A DNA stretch of 51,244 nucleotides, from contig NZ_AVAF01000010.1 of NCBI RefSeq assembly GCF_000445185.1, positions 1 to 51,244 on the forward strand, written 5' to 3'. The notes beneath the pieces were generated by a model. The model was not told the DNA's origin and searched no databases. It saw only the letters and a list, made by a program, of their open reading frames with translations. Below, one piece after another: positions 30,302-41,861 of the stretch. How positions within the stretch are numbered: the stretch's first letter is position 1; each line of letters begins with the position of its first letter. This DNA comes from Thermoanaerobacter sp. A7A. Lineage in GTDB: Bacteria > Bacillota > Thermoanaerobacteria > Thermoanaerobacterales > Thermoanaerobacteraceae. A program made the translations under genes and the position numbers.

Positions 30302-30397
30302 GATAATGGAAATTGCTAAAAAGTTAACTTTTGTTACAAAATGGTTGATGTCAGTTGATGTTTTGGCAAATAAAAATTTTATGGTGGGGTGGTAAAA

Positions 30398-31123
30398 ATG
30401 GCCAGTGTGACATTGCAAAATTATTATGACATTGTTATAGCAGGGGACTCTATTTCAAGGGGTGTAGTATACAGCGAAGAAAAAAATAAATATGTTATAT
30501 CAGATGTAAATTATGTAAATTTACTAAAGAATAACATAAAAGGAACAGTAAAAAATATTGCTAAGTTTGGGAACACTCTTTTAAAAGGTATTGACACTTT
30601 GAAGAGGTACTTGTCAAAAGATAAACCTGATATAGTTGTAATAGAATTTGGAGGAAATGACTGTGATTTCGACTGGGAAGAAATTGCAAAGAATCCTTAT
30701 GATGAGCATAGACCCAAAACAGATTTTTATATTTTTAAAGAAAAGCTTAAAGAATTGATAAAATCCTTAGATGATGCAAACATAATTCCTGTGTTAATGA
30801 CATTACCTCCTTTGGATGCTGACAGATATTTTAAATGGATAAGTAAAAACAGTGAAGAGATGGGCAAAAACATTTTAAAGTGGTTAGGCAGTGTGACTAA
30901 AATATATTGGTGGCAGGAAAAGTATAACTCAGCTATATTGAGTATAGCTGAAGAAACAAAAACAAGGCTTATTGATATAAGGAGCGCTTTTTTGGATTAC
31001 CCAGATTTTAGGCAATTTATTTGTGCAGATGGTATTCATCCTAATGAAAAAGGCCATAAAATAATAGCACATAAGATATATGAGTATCTGCAGAGAAATT
31101 ATACATATCTTTTAAAAGAGTAA
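30398..31123 (+). CDS. SGNH/GDSL-family hydrolase
   Basis: This 241-residue protein has the SGNH hydrolase blocks: GDSIS with nucleophile Ser18, Gly60 region (FGNTL) for block II, GGND (residues 85-88) for block III, and DGIHPNEKGH with Asp211 and His214 for block V. It has no signal peptide, so it should act in the cytoplasm on an ester or thioester. The ATG at 30398 is chosen because GGTGGGG is well placed; a GTG at 30389 lies inside that site. The gene stands alone, and the substrate cannot be inferred. Confidence 0.85.
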   Translation: MASVTLQNYYDIVIAGDSISRGVVYSEEKNKYVISDVNYVNLLKNNIKGTVKNIAKFGNTLLKGIDTLKRYLSKDKPDIVVIEFGGNDCDFDWEEIAKNPYDEHRPKTDFYIFKEKLKELIKSLDDANIIPVLMTLPPLDADRYFKWISKNSEEMGKNILKWLGSVTKIYWWQEKYNSAILSIAEETKTRLIDIRSAFLDYPDFRQFICADGIHPNEKGHKIIAHKIYEYLQRNYTYLLKE

Positions 31124-31435: not shown

Positions 31436-31909
31436 TTGACCAATTTGTTATTTATTTGGGTAGCGATGTTTTTGGTATGGACTGCATTGAATGCGCCACT
31501 ATCAGCCCAAAAAACTATTTTTGGAATTATTTTATCATTTTTGATTGCAGTAATTGCTAATGTATATGATAAAGAGCAAAAAAAATTTAAATTAAAAACT
31601 TTTTTTTATTTGATTAAATATTTCCTCGTGTTTTTAAAAGAACTTGTCAAAGCTAATTTGAATATGGCAAGAATAGTTTTGACTCCTTATTTACCTATTT
31701 CGCCTAAGATTTTCAAGGTTACAACAAGCCTTAAGTCTCCAATAGCAAGAACATTACTTGCAAATTCTATAACTTTAACTCCAGGAACAATATCTGTAGA
31801 ACTTGATGGGGATACATTATACATTCATGTGGTTGAGGGTGATAAAGTAGAAAACGTTGAAGATTTAAAAGGACCCTTTGAAAAGATTTTAAGGGAGGCT
31901 TTTGAATGA
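31436..31909 (+). CDS. mbxA: Mbx/Mbs complex subunit A, MnhE-like antiporter subunit
   Basis: This 157-residue protein of the MnhE/MrpE family has two N-terminal membrane segments (residues about 2-38), a third near 52-68, and a cytoplasmic C-terminal domain with the typical SLKSPIARTLLANSITLTPGTISVELDGDTLYIHVVE. The start is TTG with GGAGG nine bases ahead, and that site lies in the leader stem. It is the first of 13 genes in the order A-B-C-D-F-G-H-H'-M-J-K-L-N. It overlaps mbxB by four bases. Confidence 0.88.
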   Translation: MTNLLFIWVAMFLVWTALNAPLSAQKTIFGIILSFLIAVIANVYDKEQKKFKLKTFFYLIKYFLVFLKELVKANLNMARIVLTPYLPISPKIFKVTTSLKSPIARTLLANSITLTPGTISVELDGDTLYIHVVEGDKVENVEDLKGPFEKILREAFE

Positions 31910-32157
31910 TAATAAATGTTATTTTAGGATTAGTGATTTTCGGTCTTTTATTAAGCTTTATAAGGTTGGTAAGGAGCAGTTCAATTGAAAGCAAAGTGGT
32001 TGCTATTGACATTATGACAACTATTTCTTCGGGACTAATAGTGATTTTTGCTTTTATAAGCGATAACGGGTTATTTTTAGATGTGGCGCTAGTATATGGT
32101 ATTTTGTCTTTTATTGGGGTTGTAGCAATAGCTCGTTATTTAGAAGGAGGAATTTAG
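31906..32157 (+). CDS. mbxB: Mbx/Mbs complex subunit B, MnhF-like antiporter subunit
   Basis: This 83-residue protein has three membrane helices, as MnhF/MrpF does, with the typical RLVRSSSIESKVVAIDI between the first two. It starts inside the end of mbxA (ATGA overlap) and is followed by mbxC after one base. It is part of the sodium-translocating membrane module. Confidence 0.88.
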   Translation: MIINVILGLVIFGLLLSFIRLVRSSSIESKVVAIDIMTTISSGLIVIFAFISDNGLFLDVALVYGILSFIGVVAIARYLEGGI

Positions 32158-32158
32158 T

Positions 32159-32473
32159 ATGCAGTATATTGGATACTTTTTCTTGCTTATTGGAGCTGTT
32201 TTTTTAGCGCTAGCAGGTCTCGGAATATATAGGATGCCGGATGTATTAAATCAATCTCAAGCGGGGACTAAAGCATCAACTATGGGGATTGTTGGATTGT
32301 TTGTTGGTTTTGCTTTTCTCAAGCCATTGTGGGCACCCAAGTTAATTCTTATGGCATTGTTTTTTCTTTTTACTTCGCCGATTGCTTCACATGCAATATG
32401 TAAGGCAGCGATAAAGAGAAATAAAGCAAAATTTATATTAAAAGAAAATGCTTTTTCAAAAGAAGGTGAGTAA
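32159..32473 (+). CDS. mbxC: Mbx/Mbs complex subunit C, MnhG-like antiporter subunit
   Basis: This 104-residue protein has three membrane segments and the MnhG signature GLGIYRMPDVLNQSQAGTKASTMGI near residue 20. GGAGGAATTT lies ahead of the start. It follows mbxB by one base. Confidence 0.88.
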   Translation: MQYIGYFFLLIGAVFLALAGLGIYRMPDVLNQSQAGTKASTMGIVGLFVGFAFLKPLWAPKLILMALFFLFTSPIASHAICKAAIKRNKAKFILKENAFSKEGE

Positions 32474-32474
32474 T

Positions 32475-32717
32475 ATGTTTTTATCAGTAATTATTGCGGT
32501 TATTATGATATTTGGTGCTATGTGGACAATTGTAACTGAAGATTTATTTAAAGCTATTGTTATATTTGCAATAGTATCCCTTTCTTCTTCTATAATGTTT
32601 TTACTTATGCAGGCGCCAGATGTTGCTATAACGGAAGCGGCTATAGGCTCGGGCATAACTACTGGGCTATTTATTTTCACATACAAAAAAGTGGAGGAGG
32701 AAAAAGATGAAAGATGA
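32475..32717 (+). CDS. mbxD: Mbx/Mbs complex subunit D (MbhD-like, DUF4040)
   Basis: This 80-residue protein corresponds to a piece of the MrpA C-terminal region. It has two to three membrane helices with the conserved MQAPDVAITEAAIGSG. AAGGTGAG precedes ATG 32475. The frame is open from an ATG at 32448 inside mbxC, which has no ribosome binding site. It overlaps the next gene by 11 bases. Confidence 0.85.
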   Translation: MFLSVIIAVIMIFGAMWTIVTEDLFKAIVIFAIVSLSSSIMFLLMQAPDVAITEAAIGSGITTGLFIFTYKKVEEEKDER

Positions 32718-33447
32718 AACATCTGTATTAGTAAATATTATTGCTTTTTTAATTCTCTTTGTGATAGGAATTTATATATATAGTGTAGCTATTGATACAG
32801 GAGCAGGAATAAAAATAACGGATAATATAACTCCTACCATGAGGGTGGCCGATAAATATCTAAACAAGAACGTGTTAGATGATAATAGCACATATCAATG
32901 GGGAGGTACAGCTGAAGATACAGCTGCTAATATTGTAACTTCGGTTGTTGTTGATTATAGATTATTTGATACAACTCTTGAGGTAATAGTTTTATTTATT
33001 ACAATATTAGGTTTTGGCTTTGTTATTCCTAAAGACAAGAGAAAGATAATTAAACCTACTACTATACTTAACAGGTGGGCGCCAATTCTGATGCTGCTTA
33101 TGCTTATGATAGGGGGATACACATTTATTAATGGACACTTATCTCCTGGAGGGGGTTTCCCGGCAGGTGCTATTATATCGACGGCTATTTTGACGGGTGT
33201 TTTGACTGGAAGGAGAACAATAAGTCAAAAATCCCTTAAAATAATAGAGGCAATAACAGGTATATCAATATTTTCCATCGGAATCATAAGTTATTTTCTA
33301 ACTGGTAGCTTCTTTCAGAATTTTATATTAAATGACAAGATAGGAGATCTATTTTCAGGTGGATTGATACCTATATTTTATGGTCTTATAGCATTTAAAG
33401 TTGCTGCTGAGCTTTCAAATATCTATTTTGAATTTTATGAGGAGTGA
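32707..33447 (+). CDS. mbxF: Mbx/Mbs complex subunit F (MbhE and MnhB-like domains fused)
   Basis: This 246-residue membrane protein joins an MbhE-like N-terminal part (residues about 1-110, with TAANIVTSVVVDYRLFDTTLEV) to an MnhB-like part (about 118-246, with NGHLSPGGGFPAGAIIST). In the Mbh hydrogenase clusters these are separate genes E and F; the fused form matches the mbx arrangement. GGAGGA precedes the ATG. Confidence 0.85.
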   Translation: MKDETSVLVNIIAFLILFVIGIYIYSVAIDTGAGIKITDNITPTMRVADKYLNKNVLDDNSTYQWGGTAEDTAANIVTSVVVDYRLFDTTLEVIVLFITILGFGFVIPKDKRKIIKPTTILNRWAPILMLLMLMIGGYTFINGHLSPGGGFPAGAIISTAILTGVLTGRRTISQKSLKIIEAITGISIFSIGIISYFLTGSFFQNFILNDKIGDLFSGGLIPIFYGLIAFKVAAELSNIYFEFYEE

Positions 33448-33451
33448 TGTT

Positions 33452-33814
33452 ATGACGCAAGTTTTTATACTGTCCTCCCTTTCTCTTATGTTTATAGGTC
33501 TATATGGAGTTTTGACGAGAAAAAATTTACTAAAAATAATTATAGCGCTAAATATTATAGAAACAGGTATCAACTTACTTTTGGTTTCCTTTGGATACAT
33601 TGATCATGGAATAACACCTATTTTAACTTCACAGGAGAGTATACTTAACCTAAATAAAATGGTAGATCCAGTTCCACAGGCGATTGTTCTTACATCAATA
33701 GTTATAGGCTTGGGAACAACTGCATTTGCTTTAGCATTGGCAATACGATACAAAATTACTCATAATTCTATTTCGATAAATGCATCTGAAGAGGAAGAGG
33801 GAAGAGGTATATGA
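33452..33814 (+). CDS. mbxG: Mbx/Mbs complex subunit G, MnhC/NuoK-like
   Basis: This 120-residue protein has three membrane helices and NuoK/MnhC features: GLYGVLTRKNLLKIIIALNIIETGINLLLV and DPVPQAIVLTSIVIGLGTTAFALAL. ATG 33452 follows GAGGAG; the open frame upstream to 33401 lies inside mbxF and is not used. Its end overlaps mbxH by four bases. Confidence 0.9.
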   Translation: MTQVFILSSLSLMFIGLYGVLTRKNLLKIIIALNIIETGINLLLVSFGYIDHGITPILTSQESILNLNKMVDPVPQAIVLTSIVIGLGTTAFALALAIRYKITHNSISINASEEEEGRGI

Positions 33815-35274
33815 ATAGCATAGTTTTTTTAGTTGTAATACCAATTATTGCGGCGTTTTTATCTTTATTTTTAGGCAAGGTGAATAAATTAATTGCATAT
33901 ATAGTTACAATTTTTAACTTATCTTTTTCTATAGTTGTCCTTGTAAGTGGGAAAATACCCTTTAATGTTGCAATTGGAGGTTGGAGGGCTCCATATGGAA
34001 TAAACTTTGTTGTTAGTGATATCACAATTTTCTTTTTACTACTTATTAATGTAGCAGCAGTTCTTTCACTGACAACAATAAAGGAACATATGGAGTACCA
34101 ATTCTATGCTTTCTATTTTATACTACTTGCTGCGACTAATGGTATGGTTTTGACAGGTGATATATTTAACTTTTATCTTTTTACAGAGCTTACTACCTTT
34201 GCAATTGGAGGACTTGTGGCGTACAAAAGAGATAGATTAGCTACAGGTGCATCACTAAAATATTTAATATTATCATCAACTGCATCTACTTTTAGCTTAG
34301 CAGCAATAGGCCTCATATACAAGACTTTAGGGACTCTTAATTTCGCAGACATAGCCAGCAAAATTTCTAATTTAAACAAAGCATCATTATCTTTAATTTT
34401 AATACTCTTTATTTCTAGTATGCTAGTTGAACTAAAGATTTTTCCATTTAACATTTGGGTTGTAAAGGCTTATGATGCTTCTATTCCAGCAGTAAATCTT
34501 TTTCTTCATGGGATGGTTAGTACTGCCGGTGTATATGGGGCAATAAGAATACTTCTTATGGTATTTTCAAAAAATAGTATAATGTTAAGTCAAAGTAGCA
34601 ACATAGCAAACATTTTAATATTGTTAGCTTTTATAACAGTAATAATAAGTGAAATTGGAGCTTTGACAGAAAAAAATTTAATTAAAGTTTTGGCGTTTTC
34701 CTCTATGGCACAACTTGGTATATTCCTGTTTGGAATAAGTTTAGGCAATTATGAAGCACTAAAAGGAGCATTTTATATAGTTATATCAAACTATTTTGCG
34801 AAATTTGTAATGTTTATTGTTGCAAAAAATTATTCTGTTATTGCAGGAAGCAGAAATTACGAGGACATGAAAGGATTAGGGAGAAAATATCCTGGACTCG
34901 CGATAGCTTTTACAATATCAGCTTTAAGTCTTATGGGAATGCCTTTTTTCGCAGGATTTTGGGGTAAACTTTCCATAGTTGGAAATGCACTTTTAATGGA
35001 CAAAATTGCCATTATAGGTGTAATAATAATACTGATTTCCTCTGTAATTGAAGGTGTTTATTATCTTAGAATATCTCATACATTTTTTAGTGATGGAAAT
35101 ATTCAAGACACTAAATTATCAAGGATTAATTGCGTGCTACCAATAATTTTAGCGGCGGTTATTTTGATTATAGGGATATATCCAAATTCAATTGAAAATA
35201 TAATATGGACGATGATAAATGAAATACAGAATACACCAGAAAAATATATACAAGTAATTTTGCCTTTAAAGTGA
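33811..35274 (+). CDS. mbxH: Mbx/Mbs complex subunit H, MnhD/NuoN-like ion-translocating subunit
   Basis: This 487-residue protein has about 14 membrane helices, as do the antiporter-like complex I subunits. Conserved blocks include TGDIFNFYLFTELTTFAIGGLVAYK with a helix-5 glutamate, ELKIFPFNIWVVKAYDASIPAVNLFLHGMVSTAGVYGAIR, and the lysine-containing LTEKNLIKVLAFSSMAQLG. It should move Na+ or H+ across the membrane. It is paired with a second, longer subunit H' directly downstream. Confidence 0.92.
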   Translation: MNSIVFLVVIPIIAAFLSLFLGKVNKLIAYIVTIFNLSFSIVVLVSGKIPFNVAIGGWRAPYGINFVVSDITIFFLLLINVAAVLSLTTIKEHMEYQFYAFYFILLAATNGMVLTGDIFNFYLFTELTTFAIGGLVAYKRDRLATGASLKYLILSSTASTFSLAAIGLIYKTLGTLNFADIASKISNLNKASLSLILILFISSMLVELKIFPFNIWVVKAYDASIPAVNLFLHGMVSTAGVYGAIRILLMVFSKNSIMLSQSSNIANILILLAFITVIISEIGALTEKNLIKVLAFSSMAQLGIFLFGISLGNYEALKGAFYIVISNYFAKFVMFIVAKNYSVIAGSRNYEDMKGLGRKYPGLAIAFTISALSLMGMPFFAGFWGKLSIVGNALLMDKIAIIGVIIILISSVIEGVYYLRISHTFFSDGNIQDTKLSRINCVLPIILAAVILIIGIYPNSIENIIWTMINEIQNTPEKYIQVILPLK

Positions 35275-35284
35275 GGGTGAGAAT

Positions 35285-37159
35285 ATGGTAGAAATTTTAC
35301 TGGTTCCTCTTATAACAGCATTTATATCGGATATTTTTATAAAAAACAAGCGGCTCGTATGGTTTCTTTTTCTGATTTCTAATGGCTATATATTATATAA
35401 ACTTTACTCATTGTATGGAAAGTGGGATTTAACTTATATATTAAACACTGATTACCAAATATTTGGTGCAAAACTAAGTTTAGGACTTTCAAATAATCCT
35501 TTAGGATGGTATTTTGCCTTTTTCTCGGCTGTTGTTACCTTAGTAATTGCTATATTTTCTATAGGATTTAATACAAACTCTAAAGGAAATGTAGCTCCTA
35601 TATGGATGCTAATTATATTTGCTAATCTTGGAATATTCTATGCAGCAGATTGGATAACATTTTTTATGATGTGGGAACTTATGGGATGGACATCTTTTTT
35701 CGCAATAACCAATGGAAATACTAAAGCATTAGATGGTGCAAAATATTACTTGGCTCTTTCTCTTCTTGGTGGGTCTTCCATGTTAATTGCAATATTACTG
35801 CTTGGTGCATATACTAAAACTTTTATTATTATTACTTCTGCTTATAGATTGATCCAGCTGTTTAATTTGGCAGAAGGTGTTTTTACAACAATATTACTTT
35901 TGTTTATTATGGCATTCTTCATAAAATCGGCAATATTTCCATTTTACATGTGGCCTTCAAAAGTATATGCTGTAGGTCCTGAAGATTACATTGCGTTTAT
36001 GTCTTCAGTAATGATAAAATATGGCATTTATCCTATGGCAATATTCATAGTTCCTGTAATTGGAAATTTACAACTTCCTAAGATATTTAATGCAGGTAAT
36101 TGGATGCAATATTTTATTGGTTATCTTGGAGCGCTTAGTGCTGTTGTAGGGACTTTACTTGCTATGTTTCAGACTGATATGAAAAAATTATTTGCGTATT
36201 CCTCTGTGGCAAACATGGGATATATACTTTTAGGTTTCGCATCTATGAGTATAGTAGGTTTTGAAGGTTCGCTTTTCCATGTTGTTAATCATATTGTTTT
36301 AAAAGCTGCGATATTTTTATCTCTTGCTGCTGTAGTGTATAGGACGGGTGAGAGTGAGATGCACAAATTAGGTGGACTTGTATATAAAATGCCTATTACT
36401 TTTTTGACATTTCTTTTTGGAATAATAGCAGCAGCAGGAATACCACCGCTTAATGGCTTTGGCTCAAAGTGGATGATAATACAAGCGCTTATGGAGAAGA
36501 AGATGGTTGTTCTTGTAATATCCATGGTATTTGCATCAACCGGAGCGTTTATGTATTTATTTAGGGCACTTGTTTCTATATTTTTAGGACAACTTCCCGA
36601 AAGATATAAGGATGTAAAAGAGGTACCATATACAATGTCAATACCCATGATTATAATGATGGGCTTGATGCTTCTAATTGGTGTGGTACCAGGGGTTGTG
36701 ATGAAACCATTAACTATTGCACTGGATGCATTAGGGTATAAAGTTGATATCGCTACTTGGACTACTCTTAGTTCGTCTTTTAAAAATGCGACGATAGATT
36801 TAAAAATAGTATTTTACATGTTTGCTATGGGTATTGTAGTTGCAGCTTTGATGTATTTGTTTGGAAACAAATCCGAAACTATACCACAGCATGATAATTA
36901 CACAGCAGGAGAGAACCCAATAGAATGGGGAGTTGATGCAGACAAGTTTAACTATTCTTATTCATTTTACCAACCATTTAAGGAGATGTTTGACCCGCTT
37001 TTTGAAAGAATTTCAATAGATAGATTTTTTTCAAGTATAGGTAAAAATTTTGAATATATAAGCCCAACCATTCAAGGGCTATATAAAAGAGGAGAAGGAG
37101 CAGTGTTGCTTTTTAGCATTGGTGTTCTCTTATTTATACTAGGGGGTTGGATTTTATGA
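35285..37159 (+). CDS. mbxH': Mbx/Mbs complex subunit H', second antiporter-like (NuoL/HyfB-type) subunit
   Basis: This 624-residue protein has about 15-16 membrane helices. It carries MMWELMGWTSFFAI, IKSAIFPFYMWPSKVYAVGPEDYIAFMSSVMIKYG and FQTDMKKLFAYSSVANMGYILLG of the proton-conducting family. Presence of both H and H' sets the Mbx/Mbs layout apart from Mbh, which has one. GAGGGTGAG lies ahead of the ATG. The stop overlaps the mbxM start (ATGA). Confidence 0.9.
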   Translation: MVEILLVPLITAFISDIFIKNKRLVWFLFLISNGYILYKLYSLYGKWDLTYILNTDYQIFGAKLSLGLSNNPLGWYFAFFSAVVTLVIAIFSIGFNTNSKGNVAPIWMLIIFANLGIFYAADWITFFMMWELMGWTSFFAITNGNTKALDGAKYYLALSLLGGSSMLIAILLLGAYTKTFIIITSAYRLIQLFNLAEGVFTTILLLFIMAFFIKSAIFPFYMWPSKVYAVGPEDYIAFMSSVMIKYGIYPMAIFIVPVIGNLQLPKIFNAGNWMQYFIGYLGALSAVVGTLLAMFQTDMKKLFAYSSVANMGYILLGFASMSIVGFEGSLFHVVNHIVLKAAIFLSLAAVVYRTGESEMHKLGGLVYKMPITFLTFLFGIIAAAGIPPLNGFGSKWMIIQALMEKKMVVLVISMVFASTGAFMYLFRALVSIFLGQLPERYKDVKEVPYTMSIPMIIMMGLMLLIGVVPGVVMKPLTIALDALGYKVDIATWTTLSSSFKNATIDLKIVFYMFAMGIVVAALMYLFGNKSETIPQHDNYTAGENPIEWGVDADKFNYSYSFYQPFKEMFDPLFERISIDRFFSSIGKNFEYISPTIQGLYKRGEGAVLLFSIGVLLFILGGWIL

Positions 37160-38040
37160 TAGCAGCTATAAGAGTTTTTGGTTATAGCTTGTTTGCAATA
37201 TTTATTGGACTCTTATTTATGGGTATAGGGAGGAAGATTATTGCAAGAATTCAGCTGAGATTAGGTCCACCATTTTATCAGGCATTTTTAGATGTAGGAA
37301 AACTCTTTGCCAGAAAGTCCATAACACACAATTTTGTGATGGACCTTGGAATGATAATGTCGCTTGCGGGACTACTGTCAACTATGCTATTTGTTCCAGT
37401 AGCTGGACATATGGCTATAAAGACTAGTTCTAATCTAATTCTAATAATTTACCTCATGGCCATTGGACATCTTGGAATGGCGATGGCAGCTGCAGCCAGT
37501 GGAAATCCCAATGCAACAATTGGCGTATCTCGTGCACTTACAATGATGCTGGGATATGAAATTCCGTTTTTTACAGTAATGTTAGGATTAATAATTTTTA
37601 ATGGGACTTCTTCTCTTGAGCTTATTGCGCAAAGTCAGGCAGGTGGAATATTGAATTGGAATATGGTTAAATTTCCGCTTGGATTTTTAGCAGCTGAAAT
37701 TGCATTACAAGCGATAATGGGAGAAAAACCATTTGATGCAATGGTAGCACCTGCTGAGATAGCTTCAGGACCTATGGTGGAGCTTGGTGGTAAGTACCTG
37801 GGACTTGCATTTTTGACACATGCAGTTTCAATTTTTGTTGAAACAGGGATAATGGTAAATTTATTTATGGGCGGTGCTTCAAATGTATTTACTTTTGTAT
37901 TAAAACAATTTGAAATATATTTAATTACTATACTTATTGAGGCCGTATTCCCGAGATTTAGAATAGAGCAGGCAGTTAAATTTCTCTGGACTGTTCCCAT
38001 GAGCATTGCAGTTGTCCAGCTTGCGATAATATTATTGTAA
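37156..38040 (+). CDS. mbxM: Mbx/Mbs complex subunit M, NuoH-like
   Basis: This 294-residue protein has eight predicted membrane helices and links the membrane and peripheral arms, as NuoH does in complex I. Family marks are RIQLRLGPPFYQAFLDVGKLFARKS, GYEIPFFTVMLGL and the acidic loop GEKPFDAMVAPAEIASGPMVELGGKYLG. ATG 37156 lies nine bases behind AGGGGG. The TTG at 37147 touches that site and is rejected. Confidence 0.9.
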   Translation: MIAAIRVFGYSLFAIFIGLLFMGIGRKIIARIQLRLGPPFYQAFLDVGKLFARKSITHNFVMDLGMIMSLAGLLSTMLFVPVAGHMAIKTSSNLILIIYLMAIGHLGMAMAAAASGNPNATIGVSRALTMMLGYEIPFFTVMLGLIIFNGTSSLELIAQSQAGGILNWNMVKFPLGFLAAEIALQAIMGEKPFDAMVAPAEIASGPMVELGGKYLGLAFLTHAVSIFVETGIMVNLFMGGASNVFTFVLKQFEIYLITILIEAVFPRFRIEQAVKFLWTVPMSIAVVQLAIILL

Positions 38041-38063
38041 GATAATAGAAGGGGGCAATTTGA

Positions 38064-38660
38064 ATGGAAGATTTAAAGGCTAATGATAAAAGAAGCTATA
38101 TTGATAATTTGATAGATTTTTTTAGAAAAAGATCTATATGGATGCTTCATTACTGTACAGGTTGCGGAGCAGTGGAACTGCCGCCTTCAATGACATCCAG
38201 GTGGGATATTGAAAGATTTGGCATAGTGCCAATGGCGACGCCAAGACAGGCAGATGTCCTTTTAGTAACAGGATATGTTTCGTTGAAGACATTAAAGAGG
38301 ATTATAAAGATTTATGAACAAATGCCAGAACCCAAATGGGTTTTAGCATTTGGTTCGTGTACAGTAAATGGAGGAATTTACTGGGATTCTTATAACACCA
38401 TAACAAATCTTGCGGAATATATTCCTGTTGATATTACTGTATCGGGCTGTATGCCTAGGCCAGAAGCAGTTATAGATGCATTGCAAACGCTAATGGAAAT
38501 GATACAGTCTGGCGAGGGAGGAGCGTACAAAAAATACAAAGAAAACTATGAATACTATAAAAAGAACCAGGATAGAGTTTTAAGGAAAACAGCCCCAATA
38601 TTAGGAAGCAGCGAAACAGAGTCAATTTATCAAGAAAAGGAGGGGAATTATGAAACTTGA
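38064..38660 (+). CDS. mbxJ: Mbx/Mbs complex subunit J, NuoB-like iron-sulfur subunit
   Basis: This 198-residue protein corresponds to the small hydrogenase subunit and to NuoB. Four cysteines for the proximal 4Fe-4S cluster are present: Cys31 and Cys34 in YCTGCGAVELP, Cys99 in AFGSCTVNGG and Cys129 in VSGCMPRPEAV. The C-terminal tail is charged. It overlaps mbxK by 11 bases. Confidence 0.93.
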   Translation: MEDLKANDKRSYIDNLIDFFRKRSIWMLHYCTGCGAVELPPSMTSRWDIERFGIVPMATPRQADVLLVTGYVSLKTLKRIIKIYEQMPEPKWVLAFGSCTVNGGIYWDSYNTITNLAEYIPVDITVSGCMPRPEAVIDALQTLMEMIQSGEGGAYKKYKENYEYYKKNQDRVLRKTAPILGSSETESIYQEKEGNYET

Positions 38661-39126
38661 TAAAGAAAGCATAATAGAACTTTTAAATCAAAAAGGAGTA
38701 GAGGTTTTAGACCTTTATCCAAATCAAATAAGTGTAAATATTAAAAAAGATAACCTCTTAAACCATTTGGTATTTTTAAGGTCAATAGGTTTTGATCATC
38801 TATCATTTATAAATGCAGTTGATTTTATAGATGAAGGTGAATTTGAACTTGTTTATCATGTTTGGTCTTACACTCATAAAATTCATGTTTTAAACAAAGT
38901 AAGAATAAGCAGAAATAATCCTGTTATACCAACGATAGTAAATCTTTGGGAACAAGCGCAGTTTTATGAGCAAGAAATACACGAGTTTTTTGGGATAATT
39001 TTTGAGGGAAACAAAGATTTATCTCCTTTGTTCTTGGAAAATTGGGTAGATATACCGCCGCTTAGAAAAGATTTTGATACAAAAGAGTTTTCTGTAAGAT
39101 TGTTTGGTGCCGAGATAAGGAGGTGA
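38650..39126 (+). CDS. mbxK: Mbx/Mbs complex subunit K, NuoC-like
   Basis: This 158-residue protein matches the NuoC (30-kDa) family, with DHLSFINAVDFIDEGEFELVYHVWSY and the conserved WEQAQFYEQEIHEFFGIIFEGN, ending in PPLRKDF. AAGGAGGGG precedes the ATG inside mbxJ. It helps to hold the peripheral arm on the membrane part. Confidence 0.92.
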   Translation: MKLDKESIIELLNQKGVEVLDLYPNQISVNIKKDNLLNHLVFLRSIGFDHLSFINAVDFIDEGEFELVYHVWSYTHKIHVLNKVRISRNNPVIPTIVNLWEQAQFYEQEIHEFFGIIFEGNKDLSPLFLENWVDIPPLRKDFDTKEFSVRLFGAEIRR

Positions 39127-39129
39127 TAT

Positions 39130-40278
39130 ATGATGGATTCACCATCATATATGTTGAGCAAAATAGCTGAAAAAGACAATTTAACTGTATACGAGCTTTT
39201 TTTTGGTCCTAATCATCCAGGAATGCATGGTAATTTTGGCTATGTACTTGAAATGATAGGGACAGAAATAGTTAAAGTTAGACCCAATGCAGGACATTTG
39301 CATAGAGGATTTGAAAAATTAATGGAACAGAAGCTGTGGGTTCAAAATATAGCACTTGTTCCTAGAATATGTGTTGCTGATCCAGACCCCAATGAAGTAG
39401 CCTATTGTACAGCCATTGAAAAGATACTAAGGGTTGACATCCCAGATAGAGCAAAATTTTTAAGAACAATCACTCTTGAAATGAGCAGGCTGTCTTCTTT
39501 CTTAATGGGAATGGGTGCCCTTGCTGCAGCTGTAGGTCTATATACGGCTATGAACATTATGACCGCCGATAGGGACTTAATACTTGATTTATTCGAATGG
39601 TTAACAGGAGCAAGAGTATACCACATGTTTAGCATACCAGGAGGCGTTAGAAATGATTTGGCTGATGGTTTTGTAGAAAGACTATATAAAGTATTGGACC
39701 ATTTAGAAAAAAGGCTAATTGAATATGATAAATTACTGTTTGAAAATCCTATAATCCACAAAAGATTAAAAGGATTAGGTTATGTCTCTAAAGAAGATGC
39801 AGTAAAATATGGGCTTACTGGCCCGAATCTTAGAGCATCAGGTAACCCCTATGATGTAAGAGTTGATGATCCATATGCAGCTTACCCCTACCTTGACGTT
39901 AGAGTAATAACACAAGAAGGTGGAGATGCATTAACTAGGGCTATTCAAATAAGATTGGAGTTTGAAGAAACGATTAATCTTATAAGGCGGGCACTTAAGA
40001 CCATGCCAGAAGGAGAGATTAGACTAAATCTTGGAAATCTTTCGGCACTTAAAGTGCCAAAAGGAGAAGCATATGCAAAAGTTGAATCGTCAAAGGGAGA
40101 GTTTGGATATTATGTAGTGTCAGACGGCGGAATGAAGCCATACAGAGTTGCGGTTAGAGGTCCTTCTCTTCCTGCAGGATTACTGCTTGCGCAAAAACAT
40201 CTTCCCAAAATGAAAATAGATGATGTAGCTGCGTGGATGGCATCACTTGCAATTTGTCCGCCTGATATAGATAAATAG
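39130..40278 (+). CDS. mbxL: Mbx/Mbs complex subunit L, NuoD/hydrogenase-large-subunit-like, without NiFe cysteines
   Basis: This 382-residue protein belongs to the NuoD/NiFe-hydrogenase large-subunit superfamily (GPNHPGMHGN, GHLHRGFEKLMEQK). In true hydrogenases two CxxC motifs hold NiFe. Here the first reads Cys81-Val-Ala-Asp84 (RICVADPD) and the second Cys376-Pro-Pro-Asp379 next to the C terminus, so two of four ligands are aspartate. Hydrogenase activity is therefore unlikely, and an Mbs-type sulfur-related reduction is favoured. AGGAGGTGAT precedes the ATG; a second ATG follows at 39133. Confidence 0.92.
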   Translation: MMDSPSYMLSKIAEKDNLTVYELFFGPNHPGMHGNFGYVLEMIGTEIVKVRPNAGHLHRGFEKLMEQKLWVQNIALVPRICVADPDPNEVAYCTAIEKILRVDIPDRAKFLRTITLEMSRLSSFLMGMGALAAAVGLYTAMNIMTADRDLILDLFEWLTGARVYHMFSIPGGVRNDLADGFVERLYKVLDHLEKRLIEYDKLLFENPIIHKRLKGLGYVSKEDAVKYGLTGPNLRASGNPYDVRVDDPYAAYPYLDVRVITQEGGDALTRAIQIRLEFEETINLIRRALKTMPEGEIRLNLGNLSALKVPKGEAYAKVESSKGEFGYYVVSDGGMKPYRVAVRGPSLPAGLLLAQKHLPKMKIDDVAAWMASLAICPPDIDK

Positions 40279-40293
40279 GAGGGAAGTAACGAT

Positions 40294-40782
40294 ATGTCAC
40301 TGGGAGATAAGAGTGTATATTCCCCGCTTACTAATCTTAAAAATTTATTTAAAAAACCTATAACAGTAAAATATCCCAAAGAAATTTTGAAAGTGTTTCC
40401 AAAAGATGGCGTATCGCCTATTTATAGAGGGCTTCATACCAATGATTTAAACAAATGTATTGGATGTGGAATGTGCCAGAGAATATGTCCTTTCGATGCT
40501 ATAGAAATGAAAGTTATTGGCGAAAATGAGCAAGGCAGAGCTATTAAAAAACCAGTTGTTGATTATGGAAGGTGTAGTTTTTGTGGATTTTGCGTAGATG
40601 TTTGTCCAACTAACTCATTAAAGATGTCAAGACATTATATATACAAAGTAAAGACAGTAAAATCGATGAGTGCAAAGGAAGAGGTAGAGCATATAAAGCA
40701 AAAATTTAAGCTTATGCCGGATGAATCTTTGGGAGATGATATAGGGTATAATACTGGGAAAGCCAAGAAAATATTAGGATAA
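40294..40782 (+). CDS. mbxN: Mbx/Mbs complex subunit N, 2[4Fe-4S] ferredoxin-like (NuoI-like)
   Basis: This 162-residue protein carries two 4Fe-4S motifs: Cys55, 58, 61 and 65 (CIGCGMCQRICP) and Cys94, 97, 100 and 104 (CSFCGFCVDVCP). It relays electrons from reduced ferredoxin to the J cluster. It is the last of the 13 complex genes. The DUF1646 gene follows after 56 bases with no terminator. Confidence 0.93.
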   Translation: MSLGDKSVYSPLTNLKNLFKKPITVKYPKEILKVFPKDGVSPIYRGLHTNDLNKCIGCGMCQRICPFDAIEMKVIGENEQGRAIKKPVVDYGRCSFCGFCVDVCPTNSLKMSRHYIYKVKTVKSMSAKEEVEHIKQKFKLMPDESLGDDIGYNTGKAKKILG

Positions 40783-40838: not shown

Positions 40839-41861
40839 ATGGTAACAGCATTAGTTGTAATTTTAGTACTTATTCTGTTATTGCCATTTGTGGTAAAGCA
40901 AGTAGAACACAATTTGGAATATTTTTTATTTACAATGGGAATTATATCTGTAATTGTGTCAAAACAATTTAGTGCAGAATTGTTTTTCCATATTTTCAAA
41001 AATCCACTCATTTACTATATTACTTTGGCAGTTTTGATTGCAGGGTTAATTTTTACATTGTTAAAAGAAAAATTGAAAATAGGTGTTGAAAAAGTTGCAG
41101 ATAAAATATCTTTGAGGCTTTTCGCATTCATTATAATCGTGGTACTTGGGCTCATGTCAAGCATTATTACAGCAATAATTGCCTCTTTGGTTTTGGTTGA
41201 AGTCGTAAACTACTTGCCTCTTACTAGAAAAAACAAAGTAAATTTGATTGTCATTGCTTGTTTCTCCATAGGCCTTGGTGCTGTTTTAACGCCTGTAGGA
41301 GAGCCACTGGCTACTATTGTTGTATCCAAGTTACATGCGGACTTCTTTTATCTTGCACGATTAATAGGTATTGATATAATAATTGCAATTTTAGCTCTTG
41401 GATTAATAGGAACATTTTTTGCAAAAAGAGAAAGTGGGATAGGTGAGCCTACAGAAGATGTTGAGGCAGATGAGAATATAAAAGAAGTATTCATTAGAGC
41501 TTTTAAAGTATTCGTCTTTATTTTTGCATTAGAGCTACTTGGAACAGGTTTTAAGCCTATAATTGATTTATATATTGTTAAAATGAAAAGTGAGCTTTTA
41601 TACTGGGTAAATACAATTTCCGCAATTGTTGATAATGCTACGCTAGCAGCAGCAGAAATTTCTCCATCAATGACGCCGGAACAGATAAGAGCTATTTTAA
41701 TGGGAATGCTTATTAGTGGAGGGATGTTAATTCCAGGTAATATTCCAAACATCATTTCAGCGGGAAAATTAAAAATAAAAAGTACAGAATGGGCACGAAC
41801 TGCTGTTCCTCTAGGTGCAATACTTTTGATAGTGTATTATATTGTATTGTTTGTGATCTAA
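40839..41861 (+). CDS. DUF1646 family membrane protein, probable cation transporter
   Basis: This 340-residue protein has about ten membrane helices. Family-like stretches are IGLGAVLTPVGEPLATIVVSKL near residue 145 and AEISPSMTPEQIRAILMGMLISGGMLIPGNIPNIISAGKLKI near 275, which recall sodium/proton antiporters of the NhaD type. AGGAGG precedes the ATG. It follows the Mbx genes in the same direction, so it may share their sodium-linked control. Transported ion and direction are unproven. Confidence 0.75.
   Translation: MVTALVVILVLILLLPFVVKQVEHNLEYFLFTMGIISVIVSKQFSAELFFHIFKNPLIYYITLAVLIAGLIFTLLKEKLKIGVEKVADKISLRLFAFIIIVVLGLMSSIITAIIASLVLVEVVNYLPLTRKNKVNLIVIACFSIGLGAVLTPVGEPLATIVVSKLHADFFYLARLIGIDIIIAILALGLIGTFFAKRESGIGEPTEDVEADENIKEVFIRAFKVFVFIFALELLGTGFKPIIDLYIVKMKSELLYWVNTISAIVDNATLAAAEISPSMTPEQIRAILMGMLISGGMLIPGNIPNIISAGKLKIKSTEWARTAVPLGAILLIVYYIVLFVI

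Follow-up and report, generated by a model that had tools for sequence, protein, structure and literature searches.

The window analyzed here, a stretch of 51,244 nucleotides (nt) from Thermoanaerobacter sp. A7A, carries at positions 31436-40782 a 13-gene operon that, by sequence comparison, is a bacterial Mbx complex orthologous to the MBS complex of Pyrococcus furiosus. In related operons from Caloramator/Thermobrachium-type genomes, hereafter the sisters, the mbxJ gene has an in-frame TGA at the codon for Cys31 of the window protein. Taken together, the data point to bacterial Mbx as a ferredoxin-driven polysulfide reductase and ion pump, with selenocysteine (Sec) most likely at the MbxJ Cys31 position in the sisters, a joint reading to which we give a probability of about 0.7. 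The window operon alone is already known from papers of 2013 and 2015 on mbx in Thermoanaerobacter (PMC3608648, PMC4596419), and the novelty lies in the Sec reading of the sisters.

Identity of the operon

The 13 open reading frames (ORFs) are all intact and run in one direction (+ strand, as do all the window features given below). Their order, A-B-C-D-E(F fused)-G-H-H'-M-J-K-L-N, with the E-F fusion and the H/H' pair, was seen again in dozens of named genomes in a single scan of the collection, indicating that the arrangement is not due to chance. Pfam and NCBIfam searches recovered the domains MnhE, MrpF, MnhG, MbhD, MnhB, NuoK/MnhC-like and Proton_antipo_M (twice), followed by NuoH, NuoB, NuoC, NuoD and a two-cluster 4Fe-4S domain (Fer4 x2).

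A comparison with PDB structures covered eight subunits (D, E, H, H', M, J, L and N), and for all eight the best match was P. furiosus MBS (6u8y), above MBH (6cfw), complex I and Mrp. The matches were obtained for MbhD-like mbxD (32448..32717; 6u8y_D, 1.6e-13; PF13244 MbhD, 2.8e-20), the mbxE/F fusion of MbhE and MnhB (32707..33447, 246 amino acids (aa); 6u8y_E, 2.5e-26; PF04039), MrpD/NuoN-like mbxH (33811..35274, 487 aa; 6u8y_H, 2e-65), MrpA/NuoL-like mbxH' (35285..37159, 624 aa; 6u8y_X, 2e-71), the NuoH-like membrane anchor mbxM (37147..38040, 297 aa; 6u8y_M, 1e-55; PF00146), NuoB-like mbxJ, the subunit of the proximal [4Fe-4S] cluster (38064..38660, 198 aa; 6u8y_J, 2e-70), mbxL, which resembles NuoD and hydrogenase large subunits (39130..40278, 382 aa; 6u8y_L, 1e-101), and NuoI-like mbxN with two [4Fe-4S] clusters (40294..40782, 162 aa; 6u8y_N, 8e-28; Fer4 x2). 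The ORF at 32707-33447 aligned with the fused MbsE (235 aa), which shows that the E-F fusion is real. The first-pass annotation had described a complete 13-gene Mbx/Mbs-type set with this order, fusion and pair, and the ORFs, domains and 6u8y matches bear it out.

The catalytic subunits were also examined residue by residue. MbxL retains one Cys of each [NiFe] pair (C81 and C376, equivalent to MbsL C85 and C385, in the motifs RICVAD and CPPDID), the other two ligands being gone, while C31, C34, C99 and C129 of MbxJ correspond, in an alignment without gaps, to MbsJ C25, C28, C93 and C123, with the CTGCG spacing kept. A tree of 49 L proteins gathered the 30 Mbx-like rows in one branch (support 100/100) beside NuoD, separate from Ech and the Thermococcus group-4 hydrogenases; the J tree gave the same Mbx grouping (99/97), apart from Ech and the Thermococcus hydrogenases, with a long-branch warning from the tool. 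The genome also encodes a separate Ech (contig C82), whose catalytic module is related to that of Mbx and differs from it in its two intact NiFe CxxC motifs. The earlier assignment to the Mbx/Mbs type rather than to Ech or Mbh is thus upheld by the lost NiFe cysteines and by the L and J trees, in neither of which the protein falls inside the Mbh or Ech hydrogenases.

In-frame TGA codons in sister mbxJ genes

The mbxJ codon for Cys31 in the window (TGT, 38154..38156), equivalent to MbsJ C25, is TGA in five Caloramator/Thermobrachium-type genomes: Caloramator australicus (L042), Caloramator proteoclasticus (L043), Thermobrachium celere (L044), a Clostridiales metagenome-assembled genome (MAG; L045) and G429. 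The context is HY-TGA-TGCGAVELPP, and the frame is open on either side of the codon, with 82-87% identity. In one order, covered with 226 genomes, mbxJ was found in seven genomes, five with TGA and two with Cys. Across the 13 subunits in 82 loci no TGA codon other than these five was aligned with a Cys, and the remaining in-frame stops fell at gene ends or within frameshifted copies. Among 72 J proteins the C25 position was Cys in 66, TGA in five and Ala in one, the lone Ala (GCT) belonging to a Latescibacteria MAG (L114). We consider it very probable, on sequence grounds, that the sister TGA encodes Sec within a U-T-G-C motif, the window's own MbxJ having Cys.

The Sec machinery was present where this reading needs it. 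SelB scored above the cut-off in all five TGA genomes, and a tRNA-Sec lay beside selB in the four genomes tested, scoring 68-71 bits where other class II tRNAs score about 48. In both loci that were read, a selD-selA-selB operon was intact and adjoined the tRNA-Sec, and both SelD genes examined themselves had an in-frame TGA in the active-site motif (G-TGA-AAKIGPE). No SelB above the cut-off was found in the window's genome or in T. wiegelii, and Thermoanaerobacter mbxJ has TGT (Cys) at the C25 position; Clostridium tepidiprofundi has SelB, yet Cys in MbxJ.

A candidate Sec insertion sequence (SECIS) was found in all five sister genes as a hairpin, GGUGG-AGUU(A/G)-CCACC, which begins 14 nt after the UGA, places the loop 19 nt from it, and has a loop opening with A-G-U. 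The published rules for bacterial SECIS elements call for a stem of 4-16 bp, a loop of 3-9 nt with an early G, a distance of 16-37 nt from the UGA and a minimum free energy of -7.5 kcal/mol or lower (PMC13188914), and in all five genes the hairpin fits the loop, stem and spacing rules, its fit to the energy rule being uncertain. A comparable hairpin follows about 1% of the codons in these loci as background. Synonymous codons after the TGA were conserved at 7 of 10 positions versus 36 of 134 (p 0.008), in an interval picked after looking.

L160-L164 have another hairpin behind the SECIS candidate, at roughly 36-54 nt past the TGA and with a perfect 7-bp stem (GACAUCC-AGGUG-GGAUGUU), and in C. 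tepidiprofundi one of its pairs is changed on both sides (A-U to G-C). Separately, the MbxJ proteins of several Peptococcaceae/Clostridiales (L088, L091, L098 and L118) read CTGCC, with an extra Cys immediately behind the C28 equivalent, giving a tandem CC as in complex I NuoB.

Replacement of Cys by Sec usually marks catalytic redox-active cysteines, in UxxC motifs (PMC1794560). The probable Sec at the C25 position in the sisters suggests that this residue matters in bacterial Mbx, with a redox or metal-ligand role.

Proton path and comparison with P. furiosus MBS

The window operon resembles P. furiosus MBS in its 13 subunits, gene order, E-F fusion, H/H' pair, J cysteines, the two residual NiFe cysteines in L and a complete H' channel, and differs from it in an L subunit that is 46% identical and in charged residues of H and M. 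By residue mapping, the five proton-path residues of MbsH' are all conserved in MbxH', and E63 of mbxD corresponds to MbsD E58. MbxH keeps E126, E207 and K386, with T238 and I323 in place of MbsH K250 (the central Lys) and H330 (His), and MbxM keeps D197, E204 and E212, with A105 and K194 in place of the archaeal charged-axis residues E104 and E193. Speaking of an H/H' pair in this ion-pumping complex, as the first-pass annotation did, overstates pumping in view of the two residues missing from MbxH.

Among about 60 H sequences, K250 was Lys only in the Thermococcales and three others, and H330 was lost in most bacteria. The incomplete H path is common to most bacterial Mbx; as judged from these alignments, it distinguishes them from archaeal MBS and does not set the window operon apart from Mbx. 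Because these residues are missing from H and M, bacterial Mbx may differ from MBS in energy yield.

Distribution and transfer

A 13-gene mbx cluster has been described in Thermoanaerobacter clade 3 (PMC3608648), and the mbx of Caldanaerobacter subterraneus yonseiensis, 97% identical to that of T. wiegelii, lies between GDSL lipase and cation transporter genes, horizontal transfer having been argued for it (PMC4596419). The window holds the same operon with the same flanks, namely a GDSL lipase/esterase on the left (30389..31123; PF13472) and a DUF1646 putative cation transporter on the right (40839..41861; PF07854, 1e-156), both outside the complex. In these two reports an NAD(P) acceptor was assumed and the TGA codon of the sisters was not described; otherwise nothing essential differs.

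MbxL was 99.7-100% identical among the members of the genus Thermoanaerobacter carrying mbx. The mbxL gene was present in three of 24 genomes of the order, and a phylum sample of 398 genomes added just three more (47-49% identity), the weaker matches in both samples being taken as Ech or NuoD without individual check. In the L tree the nearest kin of the window were Caloramator/Thermobrachium (MbxL 88-89% identical), then C. tepidiprofundi, followed by Brevinematales/Spirochaetes and Cloacimonadota/WOR-3. The Thermotogae and the Thermococcales are branches of their own, so the sharing with Thermococcales or Thermotogales that the first-pass annotation had entertained is unsupported as recent transfer and was rejected on tree position. 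Thermotoga maritima Mbx is a 13-subunit bacterial homologue induced by elemental sulfur and thiosulfate (PMC9431562); the Thermotogae branch separately, and the MbxL of the relatives covered in Thermosipho, Fervidobacterium and Marinitoga is about 50% identical.

Between the window and Caloramator/Thermobrachium, MbxL is more alike (88-89%) than RecR (67-69%), suggesting, with this one marker as the yardstick, that mbx moved between the Thermoanaerobacter and Caloramator/Thermobrachium lineages. The membrane subunits are less alike across these lineages (e.g. MbxH, 69-72%). Monophyly of Caloramator was not rejected (approximately unbiased test, p-AU 0.28), so that the branching order of Thermoanaerobacter and the two Caloramator groups, and with it the direction of the Sec/Cys change in Thermoanaerobacter, can be read in more than one way. 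A plasmid search gave no match.

Remaining subunits, gene starts and neighboring genes

The other subunits are MnhE/MrpE-like mbxA (31436..31909, 157 aa, TTG start; PF01899, 1.5e-37), whose orthologue heads the operon in relatives, MrpF-like mbxB (31906..32157, 83 aa; PF04066, 2.6e-16), MrpG-like mbxC (32159..32473, 104 aa; PF03334, 3.2e-20), MnhC/NuoK-like mbxG (33401..33814; PF00420, 2e-22) and NuoC-like mbxK (38650..39126, 158 aa; PF00329, 1.9e-31). A clear Shine-Dalgarno-like sequence was seen upstream of all the ORFs except D, G and M as called. The true starts of mbxD and mbxG probably lie downstream of the called ones, given that conservation sets in near 32475 instead of 32448 for mbxD, and near 33449 (residue 17) instead of 33401 for mbxG.

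Three observations concern related loci. The mbxA of the T. wiegelii Rt8.B1 record (L041) is apparently frameshifted, with an in-frame TAA, the cause being a mistake in sequencing or else a gene that is broken. L086 has further G- and H-like matches upstream of mbx, which suggest that another cluster of the Mrp or Mbx-like type is present. An ORF for an ArsR/SmtB-family regulator directly precedes mbxA in the Caloramator-type loci (L042:2009-2287; L043, ~2005-2310; L044, ~2004-2312; L045, ~2006; L167, ~2184) and in C. tepidiprofundi (L046:1693-2061), and not in the window; the Caloramator-type copies have two common cysteines (LxCLL and IQxCL). In P. furiosus, the sulfur regulator SurR, which controls mbs, likewise belongs to the ArsR family.

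Discussion

P. furiosus MBS reduces polysulfide; its proximal cluster has three Cys ligands, and the free iron is thought to cleave polysulfide with no amino acid residue involved (PMC7684303). The mbxA of Thermotoga was up 4.4-fold with elemental sulfur (PMC9431562), and no flavin- or NAD(P)-binding domain was detected by Pfam or NCBIfam in the 13 subunits; for these two reasons polysulfide is the likely acceptor. The substrate, coupling ion and direction in Thermoanaerobacter are drawn by analogy, the substrate being most likely polysulfide. In the proposed mechanism, electrons would pass from reduced ferredoxin to the two [4Fe-4S] clusters of MbxN and on to the proximal [4Fe-4S] cluster of MbxJ, held by C34, C99 and C129. 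Within a chamber enclosed by J, L and M, this cluster is predicted to reduce polysulfide or some other S-S bond, and the energy set free would drive H+ through H' and the Mrp-type Na+/H+ module (A-D, E, G and H). Cys31, most likely Sec in the sisters, would be a fourth cysteine beside the open iron, perhaps serving as a reversible Fe ligand or as a nucleophile.

Several results weigh against this reading. The MbsJ C25A variant retained activity with dimethyl trisulfide, as a cytoplasmic subcomplex (PMC7684303), which speaks against a role for C25. The bare 5-bp stem of the candidate SECIS reaches -6.3 to -6.5 kcal/mol, short of the published -7.5 limit (the 39-nt region reaches -10 to -12), and the hairpin was not more stable than synonymous shuffles when the sequences were taken singly (p 0.06-0.16). 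One Caloramatoraceae genome inside the Sec clade (G439) has TGT with the same hairpin; its mbx (L168, G439:C1:133500-146500) and selB are split by many frameshifts, probably reflecting an error-prone assembly, and the TGT may itself be an assembly error. Two of the five MbsH proton-path residues are missing from MbxH, and a different electron acceptor, NAD(P)+, was put forward for these operons in 2013 and 2015 (PMC3608648, PMC4596419).

There is a small but real chance that the substrate reduced by the same open-cluster chemistry is some other disulfide or a small thiol carrier, and that Sec at C25 in the sisters reflects that substrate. Thiol-disulfide selenoenzymes typically have UxxC motifs (PMC13188914), the MBS authors held that their mechanism also suits organic disulfides (PMC7684303), and no report of sulfur respiration in Caloramator-type carriers was found in titles and abstracts; yet the operon holds no other candidate substrate gene, and the sole tested homologue uses polysulfide. 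The published NAD(P)+ proposal, under which Mbx would be an ion-pumping ferredoxin:NAD(P)+ oxidoreductase replacing Rnf in these Thermoanaerobacter strains, appears unlikely. Among 10 Thermoanaerobacter genomes, mbx (G000, G004 and G005) and rnfC (G007, G010 and G011) never occurred together, and four genomes had neither, but such non-overlap is expected by chance in 29% of cases. The 13 subunits moreover offer no nucleotide- or flavin-binding domain, later work showed polysulfide itself to be a substrate of MBS (PMC7684303), and in Thermotoga maritima mbx and rnf occur together (PMC9431562).

That the Caloramator mbxJ TGA is a true stop, marking a pseudogene or a two-part gene, is quite improbable: the SECIS hairpin is weak evidence by itself, but the codon recurs in five separate assemblies with the rest of the operon intact, at a position that is otherwise nearly always Cys, in genomes that all have selB and, in both SelD genes examined, an in-frame TGA as well. 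All group-4 related complexes share ancestry, but an Ech- or Mbh-type hydrogenase has next to no probability and is rejected, given the NiFe ligands lost from MbxL and the tree placement.

Returning to a polysulfide-reducing Mbx with Sec in the sisters, an inventory from 2026 lists 119 prokaryotic selenoprotein families (PMC13188914), none of which is of the PF01058 or NuoB type, NuoE coming closest in name; nor was a paper linking Caloramator, Mbx and selenocysteine found in the open-licence literature. Sec is known in Fe-S proteins acting on S-S bonds from the selenocysteine ferredoxin-thioredoxin reductase and HdrA families (PMC13188914), whose folds are unrelated to MbxJ. On balance we favor, from the sequences compared, the view that sister MbxJ is a new type of selenoprotein, a NuoB subunit with Sec beside an open-site [4Fe-4S] cluster, in which the residue would be active in turnover as Fe ligand or nucleophile, and that Sec and Cys were exchanged as the operon moved horizontally between thermophiles that use Sec and thermophiles that do not.

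If true, the Sec reading would add a complex-I-type subunit to the known selenoproteins, and Sec in the sisters would directly test the recent claim that MBS cleaves S-S bonds by the Fe-S cluster alone with C25 idle, the sisters being a natural mutant that reopens the question of the role of C25. That most bacterial Mbx lack two of the MbxH proton-path residues bears, in turn, on the amount of energy conserved by these complexes.

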